NCBI RefSeq assembly: GCF_000003815.2
Contig: NC_049982.1
Span: forward strand, 19,398,496 to 19,462,495
Reading direction: 5' to 3'
Origin: Branchiostoma floridae
Taxonomy: Eukaryota > Chordata > Leptocardii > Amphioxiformes > Branchiostomatidae
DNA length: 64,000 nucleotides
Below the pieces are notes generated by a model, which saw only the letters and a list, made by a program, of their open reading frames with translations, searched no databases and was not told the DNA's origin. Within the stretch, counting starts at the first letter, position 1; the number at the start of each line of letters is the position of its first letter. Position numbers and translations under genes: made by a program. Positions 1-21,905 of this stretch are shown here, in pieces.

Positions 1-434
1 ATGCCGTTTGCCAGCAGTTCGTCTATGACGTTATTGTAGTAGTTGACTCCGTCTGGGTTGACGCCCCCTGCCCGAGTACCGTCAGGGAAGATCCGCGGCC
101 ATGACAGAGACAAACGGTAATCCTGCAGGCCCATGTTCTTCATGAGCTGCACGTCTTCTCGGTACTTGTTGTAGCTGTCACAGGCCACGTCTCCAGTGTC
201 CCCACGGTCTACCTTACCAGGTGTGTGGGAGAACCTGTCCCAGATGGACTCACCTTTGCCGCTGGCGTTCCAGGCGCCCTCGATCTGGTAAGCGGCGGTG
301 GCAGTGCTGAAGCTGAACCCGTCTGGGAAACGGCCTGGAAGGAAGCTGTCTCTCGTCGCGTCGTAAGCGCCATAGTCGTACACGGCACAACACGCTGTGC
401 TTAACAGCACGGAGAAGGTCAACAGGGGGAGCAT
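1..434 (-). CDS. GH1-A: GH1 beta-glucosidase-like gene, first exon only (runs off left edge)
   Basis: This is the first coding exon of a fifth GH1 gene. It reads from an ATG at 434 down to base 1 and continues outside the window (144 codons plus 2 bases seen). A hydrophobic leader (MLPLLTFSVLLSTACCA) is followed by the family start AVYDYGAYD, then [14 protein letters not shown] (glycone-pocket Gln), [26 protein letters not shown] and [13 protein letters not shown]. These blocks match GH1-B to GH1-E. The catalytic Glu motifs lie beyond the edge. Where the paralogs have FIWSTAT or FFWSTAT, this copy has FSFSTAT, so an otherwise conserved Trp is Phe. A homolog of LPH- or myrosinase-like secreted GH1 enzymes is expected. 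Whether the remainder is intact cannot be judged here. Confidence 0.88.
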   Translation of the reverse strand, partial: MLPLLTFSVLLSTACCAVYDYGAYDATRDSFLPGRFPDGFSFSTATAAYQIEGAWNASGKGESIWDRFSHTPGKVDRGDTGDVACDSYNKYREDVQLMKNMGLQDYRLSLSWPRIFPDGTRAGGVNPDGVNYYNNVIDELLANG

Positions 435-1279: not shown

Positions 1280-3806
1280 CTACATGTTGTACATGTTGTA
1301 CATGTTGTCAGAAAGTTGTACATCGCGGTGACTAGGTAGCAGAGAGCTAAGAGCCCGACGTTGGCTCGGGTTGCTGCCGCCCGGCCCTCCCCGACACTCC
1401 TCCCACCTGCTCCGCACCATCGCGGTGACCTCTGCTCCCTCGGGGAAGCCGTTATTGGCGATGACGTCCTTGTAGAATCCGGCGGACTGCTTGGGTGTTC
1501 TGGGCCGGTTCGGGTCGGTGAAGTTAACGCAGTGCAGCCCGAACCGCTCCGTGTAGCCCTCGGCCCACTCGAAGTTGTCCATCAGGGACCAGGCGGTGTA
1601 GGCCCGAACCTTCACTCCGTCCAGGTCGATAGCTGCGATTATTGGGTGATAGACAGCAAAATCAATGGTACAAGTACCGAGATGCCAATAGATTCGTAAT
1701 AAGATAAACTTGTCTATAATTCCTGATAGAAATATAGCACCTCAGGCTCTCACCTTTCAGAACCTCGTTGATGTACCCCATGTAGAAACAGAGGCGGCCA
1801 GTCTCCTCCAAGATGGGCGGATCCGCCTCTTCTTCAGACCAGCCGTTCTCGGTGATGTAGATGTCAGGATCGTTGTAGTGTTGCTGTAAAAGAGTGGTTG
1901 TACTTTGTGATGCTTACTGATACCTGCTGGCGCTATGTAAGGTTGAGTTTTCTCCAACATTTAAATCGGTACACAAATAAAAAGAATACGAGAATTATGA
2001 AATATTGGGAAAAGATGGACTGAAGCGCCTAGAACTTCCCTCCATGGAAAGTCATGATAGCGTACCTTGATGTAGTGGAGCAGCCTGCGGATCCCCCACG
2101 GCACGGAGTAGAGCCAACTGGAAGCCGCCTGGGGCCACTCGGGCGCCACGGTGGACTTCAAGTCCTGGTCGGTCCAGAAAACAGGGTACTGAGGAAGAGA
2201 TCAATGACTTTATATTAAGAAAGAAACCCGTTTGCATCCTGACCAAAATACTTTGGCGCCATCTCTGAGGTCAAATCACCATGTCTCTTGAAAGACCCAT
2301 GAGCTTTAACAAGTATCTAGGACTATGACAATAACTTACCTGACCGGTTAATACCTTGTCTTTCACGATCCCAGATGAATAATGGTTCAGCCCGAAGAAG
2401 TCGTAGGTACCGCTGATGTTGGCAATCTCGGCTGGGGTGAACTTTGGCAGACGGGACTCCTGGAAACCCTGCGCCAGACTCTTCCGCAAGATCTGTTACG
2501 TAAGATGTGCAACTGTTAGACCAGAACAGCAAAGGTATTTCATGATTACACCTGTATGTGTACAAAAAGAACTTAGATAGAAACATTGGGAGTATGTATA
2601 CTCACGATATCCTTCATGGCAGGAGGATAGTCGCCTTCTGAAGTGTAGATCGGGTGAGCGAACCAGCCCATCTGGAACTGGAGGCTGCGGTCGGCAGCGA
2701 CGACATCAGCCGGGAGGTCCGGGTCGAACGGCTCGGTCCAGCCGGAGCTGAGCGTGATGCTGACTTGTCCTCCCTGGTCCCGGCGAAAGTTCTGGTCGTA
2801 GCTGTGCCACGCTCTGGCATGGGCCTTGGGAGAATCAGCGCAAACGTTTCGTAAAAACAATTATTCAGCATCGCTACATACATTGACATGACATGAGTTT
2901 GTCGAAAGAACAAGACGCCAAGATACTTAGTTGTTCGGCCTCCCTTACTTCAATCAAGGTAAATGCAACTGTAACTCGCCTCATGTACAGTGTACCACAC
3001 AATTTAAAGGCGTTACTGTTAACCATCGCCCAAACCTCCTCCCCTACTTTATGGGTGGGTTGAATCTTATGTAGGTATGGCCGTAAACATACCTTCAACA
3101 GAGTGTGTCCGCAGAGATAAGTAGAGTTTCCTGAGTCTTGTATGCCGGGAGCGTGGAATCCCAAACCATACCCAACCACGCACACCGCCCAGGGCTCGTT
3201 AAACGTGATCCAGTACCTCACTCTGTCCCCGAAAGTCTGGAACACGAAATCCGCGTAGTCGTTGAAGTGATCTACAAGCGTCTCGTTCACCCATCCTCCG
3301 TACCTGTCCTGTAGGGCCTGCGGGAGGTCCCAGTGGTAAAGTGTCACCATCGGGGTGATGCCGTTTGCGAGCAGTTCGTCTATGACGTTATTGTAGTAGT
3401 CGACTCCAGCTTGATTAACACCGCCCGCTACAGTACCGTCCGGAAAGATTCTCGGCCATGACAGAGAGAAGCGGTAGTACTTCAGACCCATGGCCTTCAT
3501 GAGCTGCACGTCTTCTCGGTACTTGTTGTAGCTGTCACAGGCCACGTCTCCAGTGTCCCCACGGTCTACCTTACCAGGTGTGTGGGAGAACCTGTCCCAG
3601 ATGGACTCACCTTTGCCGTCCACGTTCCATGCGCCCTCGATCTGGTAGGACGCCGTGGCCGTGCTCCAGATGAAGTCGTCAGGAAACGTACCTGGTCTAA
3701 AGTTGTCTCTGGTTGAGTCGTACGCGCCATAGTCGTACACGGCACCACAAACCATCCCTTGTATAAGGGTCGTTGCGAACAGAGCCAGTATGATAGTTAC
3801 CATCAT
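1280..3806 (-). CDS. GH1-B: secreted GH1 beta-glucosidase-like enzyme, chimeric and lacking the C-terminal anchor
   Basis: There are six coding exons (minus strand): 3093-3806, 2606-2824, 2340-2492, 2066-2188, 1754-1883 and 1280-1632. All introns are GT-AG, phases 0,0,0,0,1, and the frame stays open for 563 residues. It predicts a retaining beta-glycosidase: signal peptide about 1-21, acid/base Glu204 in TFNEP, nucleophile Glu415 in ITENG, and SLMDNFEW in the last exon. Most of exon 1 is nearly identical to GH1-E, while exons 2-6 and their introns match GH1-C. In the last exon an 8-bp deletion after GGP (near 1382, relative to GH1-C 4791-4798) shifts the frame. The hydrophobic tail is replaced by a polar 30-odd residue extension ending NMYNMYNM. 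The catalytic domain appears intact, so a soluble secreted enzyme is likely. Substrate unknown. Confidence 0.9.
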
Positions 3807-4631: not shown

Positions 4632-4708
4632 CCACGCGAAATTTCTAACCTAGAACGTCCAGAAAAAATGCAAAAACAATAAACACATGGCACTAGATAC
4701 AGACATTT

Positions 4709-7333
4709 CTACATGTTTAGAAAGTTGTGCATCGCGGTGACTAGGAAGCAGAGAGCTAAGAGCCCGACGTTGGCGCGGGTTGCTGCCGCCCAGCCCGCCG
4801 GCCCTCCCCGACACTCCTCCCACCTACTCCGCACCATCGTAGTTACCTCTGCTCCCTCGGGGAAGCCGTTATTGGCGATGACGTCCTTGTAGAATCCGGC
4901 GGACTGCTTGGGTGTCCTGGGCCGGTTCGGGTCGGTGAAGTTCACGGAGTGCAGCCCGAACCGCTCCGTGTAGCCCTCGGCCCACTCGAAGTTGTCCATC
5001 AGGGACCAGGCGGTGTAGGCCCGAACCTTCACTCCGTCCAGGTCGATAGCTGCGATTATTGGGTGACAGACAGCAAAATCAATGATACAAGTACAGGGAT
5101 GCCAATAGATTCGTAATAAGAAAAACTTGTCTATAATTCCCGATAGAAATATAGTACCTCTCACCTTTCAGAACCTCGTTGATGTACCCCATGTAGAAAC
5201 AGAGGCGGCCCGTGTCCTCCAAGATGGGCGGATCCGCCTCTTCTTCAGACCAGCCGTTCTCGGTGATGTAGATGTCGGGATCATTGTAGTTTTGCTGTAG
5301 AAGAGTGGTTGCACTTTGTGATGCTTACTGATACCTGACGCTATGGAAGATTAAATTTTCTCCAACTTTTAAATCGATATACAAATAAAAAGAATACGGG
5401 AATTATGAAATATTGGGAAAATATGGACTGAAGCGCCTAGAATTTCCCTCCGTACGAGGGATCGCTGTCGTTGTTTATATCCGGAGTATTGGGCGGTTGG
5501 TGCCTACCAGATTGGATTAAAAATTGATATTTAGATTTAATAGCAGATCAAATTACTGATTAAAATGTAAATCAATATTTTGCCAAACACCTGCTTTTTG
5601 CCTACCACTGCGTCACCGTGACATCATCGCGATCGCTCGTATGGAAAGTCATGATAGCGTACCTTGATGTAGTGGAGCAGCCTGCGGATCCCCCACGGCA
5701 CGGAGTAGAGCCAACTGGAAGCCGCCTGGGGCCACTCGGGCGCCACGGTGGACTCCAAGTCCTGGTCGGTCCAGAAATTAGGGTCCTGAGGAAGGGGATA
5801 AACGACTTTTTTTAAAAGAATGTAACCCGTTTGCATCCTAACCGAGATACTTTGACTACGTCTCTGATGTGTCGCCAAATCATGACCCATGAGCTTTAAC
5901 AAGTATCTAGGACTATGACAATGACTGACCTGTCCGGTTGAGACCTTATCCTTCACTATCCCTGATGAATAATGGTTCAGCCCGAAGAAGTCGTAGGTAC
6001 CCCTGATATAGGCGATCTCGGCTGGGGTGAACTGTGGCAGACGGGACTCCTGGAAACCCTGCGCCAGACTCTTCTGCAATATCTATTACGTAACGTGTGC
6101 AACTGTTAGAACAGCAGAAGTATTTCGAGATTACACCTGTATGTGTACAAAAAGAACTTAGATAGAAACATTGGGAGTATGTAAACTCACGATATCCTTC
6201 ATGGCAGGAGGATAGTCGCCTTCTGAAGTGTAGATCGGGTGAGCGAACCAGCCCATCTGGAACTGAAGGTCGCGGTCGGCAGCGACGACATCAGCCGGGA
6301 GGTCCGGGTCGAACGGCTCGGTCCAGCCGCAGCTGAGCGTGATGCTGACTTGTCCTCCCTGGTCCCGGCGGAAGTTCTGGTCGTAGCTGTGCCACGCACT
6401 GGCGTGAGACTGAAGAAAGCCAGCGTTTAATTGTTGCATGTAACTTGAAAGGTTGATGGACGCCAATGTACGTTTGCATTCCCCATTCCACCCACCTTCC
6501 CATAACTTTCTAGTTTAGCATTAGCAGCAGTGATAGGCAAAAATTATCAGTAAAGATCAAACACTGACCCCGCCCCTCGCCTTATTCAGACGCTCTCACT
6601 TAATTTCTGTCTTGGGTCGTACCTTTATGATAGTGTGTCCACAGAGGTAGGTGGAGTTCCCTGAGTCCTGTATGCCGGGGGCGTGGCCTCCCGACCCGTA
6701 GCCAGCAGTGCACACCACCCAGGGCTCGTTAAACGTGATCCAATACCTCACTCTGTTCCCGAAAGTCTGGAACGCGAAGGTGGCGTAGTCTTTGAAGTGT
6801 TCTACGAGCTCCTCGCTGACCCACCCTCCGTACCTGTCCTGTAGGGCCTGCGGGAGGTCCCAGTGGTAAAGTGTCACCATCGGGGTGATGCCGTTTGCGA
6901 TGAGCTCATTTATGACGTTATTGTAGAAGTCGACTCCAGCTTGGTTGATACCCCCTGCAAGAGTACCGTCAGGAAATATGCGGGTCCAGGAAAGAGAGAA
7001 GCGGTAGAATTTTAGGCCCAGGTCCGCCATGAGCTGCACGTCTTCTCGGTACTTATTGTAGCTGTCACAGGCCACGTCTCCGGTATCTTCTCGCTGCACA
7101 TTACCAGGTGTGTGGGAGAACCTGTCCCAGATGGACTCACCCTTGCCGCTGACGTTCCATGCGCCCTCGATCTGGTAAGCAGCGGTGGCTGTGCTCCAGA
7201 AGAAATCGTCGGGAAACTGTCCTGGCATAAATGCGTCCCTAGTTGGGTCGTACGCACCGTAGTCGTACACGGCACCGCAAACTGGTCCCGTCAGAAAAGA
7301 CGCGACAAGTAGAGCCAGCATGGTAACCGACAT
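4709..7333 (-). CDS. GH1-C: GH1 beta-glucosidase-like enzyme with hydrophobic C-terminal tail
   Basis: There are six coding exons: 6623-7333, 6191-6409, 5930-6082, 5663-5785, 5165-5294 and 4709-5049. All introns are GT-AG and the product has 558 residues. I chose the ATG at 7333 because it opens directly into a leader ([16 protein letters not shown]) and gives the same exon 1 length as GH1-D and GH1-E. The track allows 18 more residues upstream but they are not signal-like. Seen: Gln54 in [11 protein letters not shown], His157-Trp158 in LYHWDLP, acid/base Glu203 (TFNEP), nucleophile Glu414 (ITENG), and SLMDNFEW. The end runs from [13 protein letters not shown] into a hydrophobic stretch [11 protein letters not shown] and stops six residues later. 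That suggests a GPI signal or minimal type I anchor (inference). Intron 4 carries a 185-bp MITE absent from GH1-B. Expected role: extracellular or lumenal hydrolysis of beta-glycosides. Confidence 0.92.
5455..5639. mobile_element. Short MITE inserted in GH1-C intron 4
   Basis: The element runs from CGAGGGATCGC to GCGATCGCTCG. These ends are inverted repeats with one mismatch in 11, and TA flanks both sides (5453-5454 and 5640-5641). The corresponding intron of the close paralog GH1-B (1884-2065) is otherwise alignable but lacks these bases, so the empty site is visible in the same window. TA duplication suggests mobilisation by a Tc1/mariner-type transposase. It has no coding capacity. Confidence 0.75.
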
Positions 7334-8374: not shown

Positions 8375-8737
8375 AGCCTTCTGAATAGCCTAAAATGCAA
8401 GAGCTTCCGGGGGGCTTTGCCCCCCTAGGCCCCCCAAAGTGGCGCTGCCCTGGACCAGTGTTCCCGCCAGGCATACGTCATTCCGTCTACAGACTTATTT
8501 TTTTCTGGTAAGACGCAATCGGCTCGGCTGAGTTTCCCAAAATATTTAAGTTACAAAAGCGGTGCACGGTAAATACGTGAAGAATCCAAAACTATACACT
8601 TTATTTTTTATTTAAAACATTTCTTTTGTTTCAAAAATTGGCAGGATTTTTCCATGGGCTGACGAACTCACTGGCTAGAGCCCTGTTTGGAAGCATCAAA
8701 ACCCCAAAATTTTCATATAGACATGACTGGACAAAAC

Positions 8738-9664
8738 ATAAATTATGCAAATAAGTTCCTCATTACCATATTTGGTATCTGCTTATAGTCCACCTATCAT
8801 AATTAACATGTGTTACATTTAATGAAGTCCAGTTATTGAAGACAATGGAATTATACAATTTCCTCATTAATTATGCAAATTAAGTCCTCATTTGCATAAC
8901 ATGTATATCGTTATGAACATCTTTGCCTAAGGTACCCGCATGCCTAGTATGATGCCAATCCATCAATCCTTTCTGCAGTTATCCTCTTTAGAATGTCTTG
9001 ACAAAGACGCCCCTGCAGTTCCGCAATTAAATGTTAGGGGGCTGAAACCTGCCCCACTTTGTCATGACACTGCAAGCTATCTACCAGCCAAATGTCAAGA
9101 CCATATCACATCCAGGACAAGAGATACATTGAAAAAACTGCCATGATATAATATCCTCATTAATTATGCAAATGTACTCCTATTTTGCATAATTAGTATT
9201 TAATCTTGTACAAAATTGTCTAAGGTACCTACATACCAAAAATGATGAAAATCCGTTGTTCCCTTCTTGAGTTATCCTCGTCAGAAGTTTTTGACAAAAA
9301 TGCCCCTGCTATTCCCAAACTAGACGCTAGGGGGCCCAAACTTACGTATTTTTTTCCTGAGCACAAGAGCTATCTAATACTTAAAAATCTTGACCATAGC
9401 ATGTTCAGAACACCGAGATAGCAAAACCGGAAGTTGCACTGCAGTACCAAGGCCACACACCAGGGGGCCCAAAATTGACCTTGACCTTCGTCTTCCCAAC
9501 CCCTACCTACATACCAAATATCATCGTAGTCCATCAAGAGGTTCTCAATTTATGATGACCACAAATATGCGGACACACAGACACACACACAAACACACAC
9601 ACACACAAACACACACACAGACACACTCAAAACTATACCTCCATTTTTTCATGGAGGTAATAAT
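8738..9664 (+). repeat. Hairpin-ended repeat, copy 2 (left arm of 0.9-kb inverted repeat)
   Basis: It begins ATAAATTATGCAAATAAG and ends in the ACACAC tract plus the CCTCCAT...ATGGAGG hairpin. Internally it is built of diverged subunits, each with TTATGCAAAT-type AT-rich blocks, a CTAAGGTACC block and a GACAAAAATGCCCCTGC block. The inverted copy is at 10587-11497. Confidence 0.75.
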
Positions 9665-10039
9665 ACCCGGGCCAGATCACGGACTGCTGATTCCCCGAGC
9701 TTATAGTTATAACGTATTTTTGGGGAGAGGGCGGACGTCGATTACTGAAAAACGGGAGTAAACAAGAGTTCGTAGACCTCATATCTCCATGAAATAGTCT
9801 GATTATGTAAATGGCTTCCACATTTGCATAATCTATGCTAAGTAATGTACACCTGTAAGTAACCTACGCTGGTTACAATGTTGGTTGTCTAAGCATTTAC
9901 CACATCGATAAATTATGGCACTTTTGCATTAATTATGCAAATTAATGACTTATTTGCATATTGGGTATCTGATAATGTTCCACCTGCCCCAAACTACATA
10001 TATTGCACGTATCTGAGTTCTGTAAAAGAAACACTGCAA

Positions 10040-10558: not shown

Positions 10559-10586
10559 AGGCAACCGGCATCCAATCTCAAGGGCA

Positions 10587-11497
10587 TAATTACCTCCATG
10601 AAAAAATGGAGGTATAGTTTTGAGTGTGTCTGTGTGTGTGTCTGTGTGTGTGTGTCTGTGTGTCCGCATATTGTGGTCAGCATAACTTGAGAATCTCTTG
10701 ATGGACTACGATGATATTTGGTATGTGGGTAGGGGTTGGGAAGACGAAGGTCAAGGTCAATTTTGGGCCCCCTGGTGTGTGACCTTGGTACTGCAGTGCA
10801 ACTTCCGGTTTTGCTATCTCGGTGTTCTGAAAATGCTATGGTCAAGATTTTTAAGTATTAGATAGCTCTTGTGCTCAGGAAAAAATGACATAAGTTTGGG
10901 CCCCCTAGCGTCTAGTTTTGGGATAGCAGGGGCATTTTTGTCAAAAACTTCTGACGAGGATAACTCAAGAAGGGAATAACGGATTTTCATGATTTTTGGT
11001 ATGTAGGTACCTTAGACAATGTTGTACAAGATTAAATACTAATTATGCAAAATAGGAGTACATTTGCATAATTAATGAGAATATTCTATCATAGCAGTTT
11101 TTTCAATGTATCTCTTGTCCCGTACGTGATATGGTCGTGACATTTGGGTGGTAGATAGCTTTTAGCGTCATGACAAAGTGGGGTAAGTTTCAGTCCCCTA
11201 ACATTCAATTGTGGAACTGCAGGGGCGTTTTTGTCAAGACACTCCAAAGAGGATAACTGCAGAAAGGAATGACGGATTGCCTGCATTTTAGGCATGCAGG
11301 TAGCTTAGGCAAAGATGTTCATAATGATATACATGTTATGCAAATGATGACTGAATTTGCATAATTAATGAGGAAATTGTACAGTTCCATTGTTTTCAAT
11401 AACTGGACCTCAATACATGTAACACATGTTAATTATGATAGGTGGAATATAAGCAGATACCAAATATGGTAATGAGGAACTTATTTGCATAATTTAT
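10587..11497 (-). repeat. Hairpin-ended repeat, copy 4 (right arm of 0.9-kb inverted repeat)
   Basis: Reverse complement of 8738-9664 at high identity. It starts TTACCTCCATGAAAAAATGG, continues with a TG microsatellite (about 10617-10665), and ends AACTTATTTGCATAATTTAT. Together with copy 2 it can form a hairpin stem of about 0.9 kb. Confidence 0.75.
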
Positions 11498-12164
11498 GTA
11501 AAAATTGCAAAACCTCTTTATGATTAATAATGGGAATTTTATAATTGTAACATGTGAACGTTAGTCAATGATTAACAACACCATGCATACATTATGTTAA
11601 TGTCTTAGTCAATTGCATGAAATTTGTTTGTTTGTTTTTGTTTGAACCTTTATTTATTCATGAAAGCTCAAATCGGCCTGCAGGCCGCTTTTCATTGAGG
11701 TCATGAGGTTACGAAAGCTTTAAATTTTCATGGAGGTATGAGGTCGCCGAACTCTAGTTTTCCTATCAAGTTGCAGGAAATTCTGTTTTAGAGGGTTTGA
11801 AAATCCAAATTTTCCCGGGGGAGCATGCCCCCAGACCCCTGTCCCGACGCTGTGAAAAATCCTGGCGAGAACACTGGCCGGCGCCCTTGTGCCCTGACGT
11901 CTATACATGTTGTATTAAGATTATTTTATCGGTTGTTTTTCTACCTGTTTAATGATGCCTGTCGGGGGGGAGGGTCATGTTGATTTTTTTAGGTGGAGGG
12001 GGGGGGGGTCACGTTAATTTTTTTTGAGATGGGGGGGAGGGCCATCAAAAAATTTTTTGATCCGACTTCCAATGCACCAGCCCTCCCCCCCCCCCCCGAT
12101 AAATATCGTACGGTCCCTAACTTGTTGATTTCTATTGTTTCTGTGCTTCTGTTCTATTAGTGGA

Positions 12165-14096: not shown

Positions 14097-17584
<3,488 letters not shown>

Positions 17585-18853: not shown

Positions 18854-21800
18854 CTACACCTTGAAAATAGTAAAGATAATCGCAACCATGACTGACAGAC
18901 CTAACACCCCTATGTTGGCGCGAGTTGCTGCCGCCCAGCCCGCCGGCCCTCCCCGACACCCCTCCCACCTACTCCGCACCATCGTAGTGACGTCTGCTCC
19001 CTCGGGGAACCCGTTATTGGCGATGATGTCGCTGTAGAAACCAGCGGACTCTTTGGGCACTCGAGGCCGGCGCGGGTCGGTAAAGTTGACGTAGTGCAGC
19101 CCGAACCGTTCGGTGTAGCCGCGAGACCACTCGAAGTTGTCCATCAGGGACCAGGCGGTGTAGGCTCGAACTTTTACCCCATCTACTTCGATGGCTAGGG
19201 CGGTCAATAAACAAAAGTAAGGATTGATAAGTGTACCTAGTGTAGCACGTGACACGTTAGACCAACTATGTACAGGGAAGAGACACACATCTATAACTCA
19301 TAAACCATATACACGCGTACGAGCGCATGCTTACCTTTGAGAACCTCGTCGATGTAGCCCATGTAGTAGCAGATGCGGTCCGCGTCCTCCATGACGGGCG
19401 GCTGTTCGTCATGATCCGACCGCCCGTTCTCCGTGATGAACACGTCAGGATCACCGTAGTTCAACTGCGAGACAACACAACAAATTACTGAAAGAAATAT
19501 AGCATATATAGAGGCCATGGGGTGTAAAATATGGTAAAATAAAAGTAGGACATTCTATGAAAGACATATCCCTTAATCCAGCTCTGTTCTCGTCTAGCAT
19601 ATGTGTACGTTCTAATTCTACAGTCATGTCCACGAATTCCTGGTTTTGAAATAGTTGACATGAAGTAGTACTTTACTCTACCTTGATGAATTTGAGCAGT
19701 CTGCGGAGTCCCCAGGGCACGACATACAGCCACTCGGACGCGGCCCTCGGCCACTCGGGCGCCGTGCTCTCGGACAGATTCCTGTCGTTCGAGTAGCCTG
19801 GTGTCTACATGTGTACATAAAGAAGTGCTTTCATTTTTTTTTATACAGAGGCAGAGTGGCAGTCAGTAGTTTGTTAAAATGACATATTTTACACGAAGTT
19901 CTGGATATATGGGACGGGTACACACATCTGTAGGGTCCACCCTGTTCTGAATGATCCGTGCCGTGTAGTGGTTGAGACCGAAGAAGTCCCCTGTGCCTTT
20001 GATGCGATCTATCTCGGCAGGTGTGAACTGTGGCAGGCGAGACTCCTGAAGACCCTCCGCCAGGCTCTTCTCCCGAATCTGTGGTTCACGGAGACATGAA
20101 GGTCATTGCAACTTTTTGTGATCTAAAGACGTTATCGGGCATAGGGCGCAAACTGTATTAAAATTCATAACTACAGGGAAAAGCTATATTTCCTACATCA
20201 CCTGTAGCTGATGCAGGCAATCCACATTGAAATCTATTGTAGATTATACATGTAGTTGTAAAATCGTCACTCTTCACTGGTTCGTCACTACCTCTTCACC
20301 AGTTTTTAAAGGCGTCCCTTTTCATGTGCGAAAAGACAACATTTACTGGCCTTCGTTGCAAACTCCCTCTGTCTGTTTTCTTTTGAATTGCCGTTTTCTG
20401 AATTGACATCTTTTCCGAGCCGTAGTTAGATGTCTTAGATCAAACTACTAGTATATTACGAAAGCGAAAACATAAAAGACAACAGTCGGAGGAAGTCTGC
20501 AATGAGGAATCGGGATGGTACTATCTACACCGAGTCAATTTGTGTGGACCGCCATGGCCTAATTATCGTCGCTGAACTGAGCGAAGACTTATTTGTGACG
20601 TCACCTTCCAAACGCCGTCAACACAACCATAAAATCCTGCAGTAAAATGGCTTCTGGCGTCAGCAGACGTCAAACATGCTATTAGCATACAGAGCAGTGG
20701 TGAAGCAAAACACGACGTCTTTCAAACATGCCTGAGTGATGAAATGTCTAATGCGAAAATGAGAGTTCGTTGTTACATTAGAGAGACGGATGTTTGTATG
20801 AAACTTGTGCCCAACTCACGATATCCTTCATGGCGGCGGGATAGTCTCCTGCTGCAGAGTAGATGGGGTGCGCGAACCAGCCGATGTAGAACTGTATGTA
20901 CCGGTCTGCAGCAGCGACATCTGCCGGTGAGTCCGGGTCACGGGGCTCCGGCCAGTCACAGTTCAGAGTTATGCTGATCTGTCCTTGCTGGCTTCGTCGA
21001 TAAGTGGTATCGTATGTGTGCCACGCCTCCGCGTGAGCCTAGCAGAAATTTGAAATAAAGGATTCTACAGTAAATATCTTGTGATTTGCTGCTGTGTTTA
21101 TTACATCGTGTGCAAGTAGGAGGGGGCGAAAGAAAATATCCCTAGCATGCAAAAAAGCAGGGAAAACAAAATCCTGAGAAACAGAAATGTGTACCTTTAA
21201 GATGGTGTGTCCGCAGAGGTAGGTGGAGTTCCCTGAGTCCTGTATGCCGGGAGCGTTCCCTCCTGTCCCGTACCCAAGAAAACACACCACCCAGGGCTCG
21301 TTAAACGTGATCCAGTACGTCACTCTGTCCCCGAAAGTCTGGAACACGAAATCCGCGTAGTCGTTGAAGTGTCGTACGAGCTCCTCGTTCACCCATCCTC
21401 CGTACCTGTCCTGTAGGGCCTGCGGGAGGTCCCAGTGGTAAAGTGTCACCATCGGGGTGATGCCGTTCGCGAGCAGTTCGTCGATGACGTTATTGTAGTA
21501 GTCGACTCCAGCTTGATTGACACCGCCCGCTACAGTACCGTCGGGAAAGATTCTCGGCCATGACAGAGAGAAGCGGTAGTACTTCAGACCCATGGCCTTC
21601 ATGAGCTGCACGTCTTCTCGGTACTTGTTGTAGCTGTCACAGGCCACGTCTCCAGTGTCCCCACGGTCTACCTTACCAGGTGTATGGGAGAACCTGTCCC
21701 AGATGGACTCACCTTTGCCGTCAACGTTCCAGGCGCCCTCGATCTGGTAGGACGCCGTGGCCGTGCTCCAGATGAAGTCGTCAGGAAACGTACCAGGTCT

Positions 21801-21905
21801 AAAGTTGTCTCTGGTTCGGTTGTACGCGCCATAGTCGTACACGGCACCGCACGTGAACCCTAGCAATAGCGAAGTGGTGAGTAGGGACAGCATGGTACCT
21901 GACAT
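18854..21905 (-). CDS. GH1-E: GH1 beta-glucosidase-like enzyme with hydrophobic C-terminal tail
   Basis: There are six coding exons: 21195-21905, 20820-21038, 19926-20078, 19682-19804, 19335-19464 and 18854-19194. All acceptors are AG. Donors are standard except exon 3, which uses a weaker GTGTGT; that boundary is fixed by the 153-bp length shared with the paralogs. The product is 558 residues. The start at 21905 ([20 protein letters not shown]) gives a good signal peptide; an ATG ten codons upstream is possible. Catalytic Glu203 (TFNEP) and Glu414 (ITENG) are present. The tail reads [19 protein letters not shown] and runs on hydrophobic to the stop, suggesting a lipid or membrane anchor. It is the first gene of the cluster, head-to-head with the receptor gene. 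Exon 1 shares a nearly identical tract with GH1-B. Confidence 0.91.
20596..20603. promoter_or_regulatory. Perfect CRE palindrome TGACGTCA in GH1-E intron 2
   Basis: TGACGTCA is the consensus CREB/ATF site, here in a GC-richer patch of the 741-bp intron 2. A single 8-mer can arise by chance, so a regulatory role is only suggested. Confidence 0.25.

Follow-up and report, generated by a model that had tools for sequence, protein, structure and literature searches.

The window analysed here is a stretch of 64,000 nucleotides from Branchiostoma floridae, positions 19,398,496 to 19,462,495 of contig NC_049982.1 (C4) in assembly GCF_000003815.2. The GH1 genes A, B, C, D, and E lie in tandem on the minus strand in its first 22 kb. 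A is represented by the start of its exon 1 (1..434, minus strand; tblastn and gene model), and the remainder lies beyond the window. Gene models rest on homology and splice sites rather than on transcripts. Each of B, C, D, and E was modelled with six exons whose splice phases agree, and exon 1 can be aligned over 714 bp. Genome-wide searches (513 Mb, 431 contigs) identified four further copies of the subfamily beyond the window: Z and Y, which lie farther to the left, X, and W, which is located on contig C11. X is in the opposite orientation, approximately 87 kb from Y when measured from exon 1 to exon 1.

The exon 1 product of GH1-B matches Pfam PF00232 with an E-value of 2.3e-96 and 323.4 bits (cut-off 22.6), and a genome-wide PF00232 search locates exon 1 of all nine copies. 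Among solved structures, 8in1 (named beta-glucosidase) is nearest to this product in sequence. A, B, C, D, E, Z, X, and W carry TFNEP and [IV]TENG, of which we take NEP to be the acid/base motif and TENG the nucleophile motif of GH1. Y exon 1 (C4:19383753-19384454) has TFNDA in place of the TFNEP of the other eight, together with ITENG; Y may not be an active hydrolase because the acid/base glutamate has seemingly been lost. In W, exon 2 contains a frame change in the assembly, which points to a pseudogene or a sequence error. All nine copies (A, B, C, D, E, W, X, Y, and Z) were used in the exon 1 analyses, W was excluded from the full-coding scans (8 of 9 copies used), and W exon 2 was entered as gaps in the trees.

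Exon 1 of GH1-B, on the minus strand like the rest of the gene, has an E-like core between unlike ends. The start codon and the signal-peptide part (3747..3806, minus strand) resemble none of the other copies, with 25 of 57 sites different from E and 26 of 57 from C (counted at 3747-3803). The core (3183..3746, minus strand) differs from E at 19 of 564 sites, and the seven non-E copies each differ from B there at 56 to 85 sites; C exon 1 (6623..7333, minus strand), with 80 of 564 differences, is not close. The counterpart in E exon 1 is found at 21192..21848 (minus strand), where blastn gives 93.9% identity over the 658 columns of the entire stretch. Behind the core, the end of B exon 1 (3093..3182, minus strand) is unlike both E (22 of 90 sites differ) and C (21 of 90). 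B intron 1 (2825..3092, minus strand) is not alignable to intron 1 of C, D, or E: the B-C, B-E, and B-D identities are at the level of shuffled controls, and blastn gives no match at E 1e-3. D exon 1 (16874..17584, minus strand) carries short runs in common with A, B, and Y (AD 3250-3194, BD 3243-3188, and YD 3622-3497, in B coordinates). The earlier note had described a tract at 3240-3755 nearly identical to GH1-E, bounded on both sides, with a signal peptide and a last part of exon 1 that match neither E nor C closely. All of this holds: the interval differs from E at 23 of 516 sites, the natural tract runs from 3746 to 3183, where the scan places its limits, and the relatives outside it are different.

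The core encodes the N-terminal part of the enzyme up to TFNEP, and the nucleophile motif is encoded in exon 5. The diverged part directly after TFNEP presumably helps to shape the substrate pocket. Positive selection at the exon 1 end was considered and found no support, as synonymous divergence there is higher than nonsynonymous divergence in each of the six pairings among B, C, D, and E. At three of the B-E differences in the core (3281, 3280, and 3270), the B state is that of A and Z, and at 3276, between them, it is not; this matching with A and Z suggests that the B-E tract may contain smaller patches. Polarising the B-E differences of 3746-3183 to find the donor gave no direction (five states private to E and two private to B).

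Exons 2-6 have a different relative. B exons 2-6 with introns 2-5 (1291..2808, minus strand) resemble the corresponding part of C (4703..6403, minus strand), with blastn matches of 92.6% and 91.0%. B-C identity in introns 2, 3, 4, and 5 is 0.926, 0.796, 0.860, and 0.939, and B-E identity in introns 1-5 is 0.41-0.56 compared with 0.42-0.45 in single shuffled controls. The synonymous divergence in exons 2-6 is 0.121 for B-C and 0.861 for B-E, which bears out the earlier description of exons 2-6 and their introns as matching C and unlike E. The synonymous differences cross over between the two regions: B-E has 9.5 of 119.8 in the core and 98.3 of 192.0 in exons 2-6, and B-C has 43.0 of 118.8 and 21.0 of 187.7 (Fisher test on rounded counts, p=1.9e-15).

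The C-like part has limits of its own. On all sites its 5' limit is at 2808, inside exon 2, which starts at 2824, and at the 3' side the blastn likeness ends at 1291, at the stop codon. No B-C match was found by blastn (E 1e-3) in intron 1, in 900 bases upstream, or in 900 bases downstream. The limits on silent sites are coarser than those on all sites (BE 3741-3105, BC 3147-1433). The C-like exons 2-6 of B are a second bounded tract because the exon 1 ends, intron 1, and upstream DNA of B are not C-like. For the same reason, the picture in the earlier note of a B/C pair with one tract overwritten from E is not well supported.

Several further features were observed around these genes. C intron 4 has approximately 189 bp (5452-5640) that are missing from B; by eye they have inverted ends and resemble a small DNA transposon. 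Between C and D there is an inverted repeat (8736-9668 and 10582-11499, 92.5% identical over 933 columns). In B exon 6, at about 1381-1384 on the minus strand, 8 bp that are present in C, E, and A are missing, and the resulting frame change swaps the hydrophobic C-terminal tail for unrelated residues. Judged by its predicted product, B may be secreted instead of anchored. The hydrophobic tail is found in A, C, D, E, and Z, and W, X, and Y end in KDEL, KEEL, and IDEL, which we take to resemble ER-retention signals. The exon 6 tail of A (C4:19395964-19396295) is C-like (4703-4830), though A groups with Z in exons 2-6, and it is likely a further exchange tract.

Exchange was tested by site patterns, simulation, run tests, and trees. 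For B, C, D, and E, the informative sites that support BE|CD, BC|DE, and BD|CE number 18, 2, and 0 in the core, 2, 83, and 6 in exons 2-6 summed, and 4, 3, and 3 in the exon 1 flanks. Simulation with no exchange produced 59-116 B-E differences on the scaled exons 2-6 tree and 38-92 on the scaled flank tree, compared with the 19 observed. On each tree, 0 of 1000 simulations matched the observed B-E closeness, the BE|CD count, or a run of 220 bp identical between X and Y. None of the 1000 simulations on the exons 2-6 tree, and 11 of the 1000 on the flank tree, reached the observed B-C difference of 80.

A mismatch-tolerant, GENECONV-like permutation scan was applied to 8 of the 9 copies (without W), with the best fragment taken for each pair. 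It returned B-E 3746-3183 and B-C 2808-1385, both at Bonferroni p<0.05. The best fragments of 24 of the 28 pairs passed the same threshold. Exon 1, the longest exon, holds 21 of these fragments, and the remaining three belong to B-C, Z-A, and Z-D. On silent sites alone, 5 of 28 pairs pass (BC, XY, BX, BE, and EX). The strict run test on eight copies and all sites gave 27 runs at Bonferroni 0.05, of which 21 are in exon 1, including a B-E run at 3578-3444. On silent sites, the same eight-copy test is passed by XY and BC alone, and B-E fails. None of the 21 runs of the exon-1-only test (Bonferroni 0.05) is a B-E run because B and E are alike along the whole core. Columns or codons with a gap in any copy were dropped from the run tests and scans. 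The nine-copy alignment included about 82 codons of exon 6, and synonymous divergence was computed up to base 240 of that exon; its tail entered no scan.

Trees of the regions differ; one topology shared by exon 1 and exons 2-6 was named in the earlier note as a refutation. The exons 2-6 tree places B with C at 100/100 support, and the exons 2-6 data reject the core topology (p-AU 2.9e-71). The exon 1 flank data also reject the core topology (p-AU 0.00074) and do not reject that of exons 2-6 (0.18). The core is not reciprocal: the nine-copy core data reject the flank topology (p-AU 0.034), but neither the exons 2-6 topology (p-AU 0.154) nor a B+C grouping (0.161) is rejected by them. The shortest branches of the core tree are those of B and E.

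The likeness in the middle of the core is not private to B and E. Of the 330 sites at 3297..3626 (minus strand), 6 separate B from E, 6 from X, and 7 from Y, and 5 separate X from Y; C and D differ from B at 43 and 44 of the same sites. X and Y are identical over an uninterrupted 220 bases despite the inversion of X. What is special to B and E is confined to the outer parts of the core. The conversion reading of the earlier note thus stands as exchange between paralogues, which the scans, site patterns, and simulations support well, and falls as a single private B-E event, since X and Y share 3626-3297.

Synonymous codon differences at unchanged residues were followed along the gene. Medians were taken over 32 of the 36 pairs (BC, ZA, XW, and BE excluded), and a bin needed at least 5 usable codons to be counted, so that the first bin rests on 13 of the 32 pairs and exon 2 on 25. 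The median is 0.57 in the first exon 1 bin (13 pairs), 0.06-0.11 in 3626-3477, 0.33-0.38 in 3491-3387, 0.06 in 3356-3297, 0.50-0.63 at the exon 1 end, and 0.33-0.53 in exons 2-6. Eight selected stretches of other GH1 genes served for comparison, with at least 8 shared codons required (28, 70, 63, 27, and 9 of 72 comparisons across five blocks). Against the nine copies, these stretches show codon differences of 0.45 in 3626-3477 and 0.41 in 3401-3297, and of 0.48-0.59 in the other blocks; the nine copies among themselves show 0.09 and 0.13 in the two low blocks. Among themselves, the other GH1 genes show 0.36-0.37 in the two low blocks compared with 0.46-0.53 in two others, some of these values coming from 3-4 pairs.

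Constraint on synonymous sites as the entire cause was rejected, given the simulation result and the far larger differences of the other GH1 genes in the low blocks. From these comparisons, constraint seems to have some part, and most of the likeness seems to come from exchange. Repeated conversion often raises GC3, which is a frequent sign of it and not a defining one. In the analysis of GC3, whose medians exclude the sister pairs BC, ZA, and XW, GC3 is 0.70-0.74 in the core, 0.63 in the exon 1 ends, 0.70 and 0.65 in exons 2-3, and 0.75-0.78 in exons 4-6. GC3 gives no clear mark of conversion here: the core lies above the exon 1 ends but not above exons 4-6.

GH1-B is a mosaic with definite limits, and its likeness to its relatives exceeds what the no-exchange null produces. 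Very probably, it arose by repeated ectopic gene conversion within the GH1 tandem cluster. We infer non-crossover conversion as the cause, which the sequence alone does not separate from a double crossover or a chimeric duplication. The middle of exon 1 would have been copied from gene to gene repeatedly, which would give the near-same 330-bp centre in B, E, X, and Y, and the same repeated copying would give the 564-bp core common to B and E. The B-C likeness in exons 2-6 and introns 2-5 would be due to a separate exchange. The exon 1 ends, intron 1, and the flanks would have remained unexchanged and would preserve the older relation. Among B, C, D, and E, only introns 2-5 of the B-C pair still resemble each other, and the other introns and the flanks have lost their likeness. 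As the longest exon, exon 1 is also the longest intron-free stretch common to these genes. It would be favoured because introns and flanks are too diverged to pair; repair pairing could then begin and stop only within exons, so that tracts would come to lie midway along the longest of them, as is observed. The inverted position of X is more easily reconciled with one-way copying than with crossover, unless X was inverted later.

The explanation that survives best beside repeated conversion is that B is a chimeric gene, in which a copy of C exons 2-6 was attached, by unequal crossing-over or partial duplication, to a promoter, exon 1, and intron 1 of older origin, with the core homogenised later. 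A C-like stretch of approximately 1.5 kb that includes the introns would suit such an origin. However, the 5' limit of this stretch falls within exon 2 instead of intron 1, its other end is close to the stop codon, the following 900 bases give no B-C match, and the exon 1 core is left unexplained. A chimeric origin is possible but doubtful. It is improbable that B and C are whole-gene sister duplicates and that a single conversion from E overwrote the B exon 1 core. This would fit the full support for B+C in exons 2-6 and the bounded B-E tract, but the synonymous divergence of B from C is 1.08 in the signal peptide and 0.79 in the exon 1 end, intron 1 and the upstream and downstream DNA are without a B-C match, and X and Y share the likeness at the centre of the tract. 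Sister duplication is contradicted unless B or C later lost its likeness in all flanks.

An assembly artefact, in which an E-like allele or a chimeric read was placed in B, is very unlikely. The genome-wide polymorphism of Branchiostoma floridae is quoted as 6-7% in PMC2632668, and the B-E difference of 3.4% is below this value, which makes an E allele conceivable. However, the window contains zero N, at 100% identity B exon 1 matches a single place in the genome, with E next best at 94%, some B-E differences have B following A and Z, and like patches in many other pairs would require many separate faults. Retention of an ancestral core in B and E by strong constraint or slow evolution, with no exchange, is hardly credible: the short B and E branches, the compatibility of the core data with the exons 2-6 topology, and the somewhat fewer codon differences of other GH1 genes in two blocks agree with it, but no simulation on either scaled tree reached the B-E closeness, synonymous sites cross over between regions, and C and D vary freely in the same columns.

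Gene conversion by repeated, family-wide exchange, and not by one B-E event, is the best reading of the sequence. It is a known process, and the case is a new example in another gene cluster. The closest parallel is the fugu protocadherin clusters (PMC1852091). There too, tandem paralogues have become alike over part of a single large exon, synonymous sites included, and differ over the rest of it, which the authors of that report read as repeated regional conversion. The fugu region is the 3' part of the variable exon, with more than 99% identity and raised GC3, whereas in the GH1 cluster the middle of exon 1 is affected, homogenisation is less complete, and GC3 does not exceed the values of exons 4-6. 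The primate red and green opsins (PMC3924837) are likewise described as tandem paralogues approximately 24 kb apart with exchange in parts and divergence kept elsewhere. In the opsins, homogenisation has reached the introns, and selection is believed to protect the divergent exon; in GH1, in contrast, intron 1 is diverged and the exon is homogenised. For the spider MaSp silk cluster, PMC9779670 reads the likeness of clustered paralogues as intergenic gene conversion, as here, but these genes encode repetitive silk proteins with intense within-gene homogenisation. The amphioxus VCBP genes (PMC2632668) form an amphioxus cluster in which one gene is described as having most likely been homogenised by gene conversion; they are immune-type genes, and the passages of that source hold no tract map. 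Among the matches listed, no literature report of exchange in the amphioxus GH1 cluster was found by title or start of abstract.

A wider view, which is tentative and rather unlikely, is that the middle of exon 1 is a shared cassette of the whole family, copied in direct and inverted orientation and perhaps to another contig. What would then remain gene-specific is the signal peptide, the loop that follows the acid/base residue, and the C-terminal address, whether a hydrophobic tail or a KDEL-like end. If this is true, a common catalytic half would be brought into new combinations with different substrate loops and cell destinations, which selection would favour, and exon layout would be linked to enzyme diversification.

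GH1 family trees built from exon 1 or from the whole coding sequence will mislead, and exons 2-6 are safer as long as the B-C tract is kept in mind. The long exon has been homogenised, and the short exons between diverged introns mostly have not. The cluster offers a clean, testable case in which intron positions may set where paralogues still exchange DNA.
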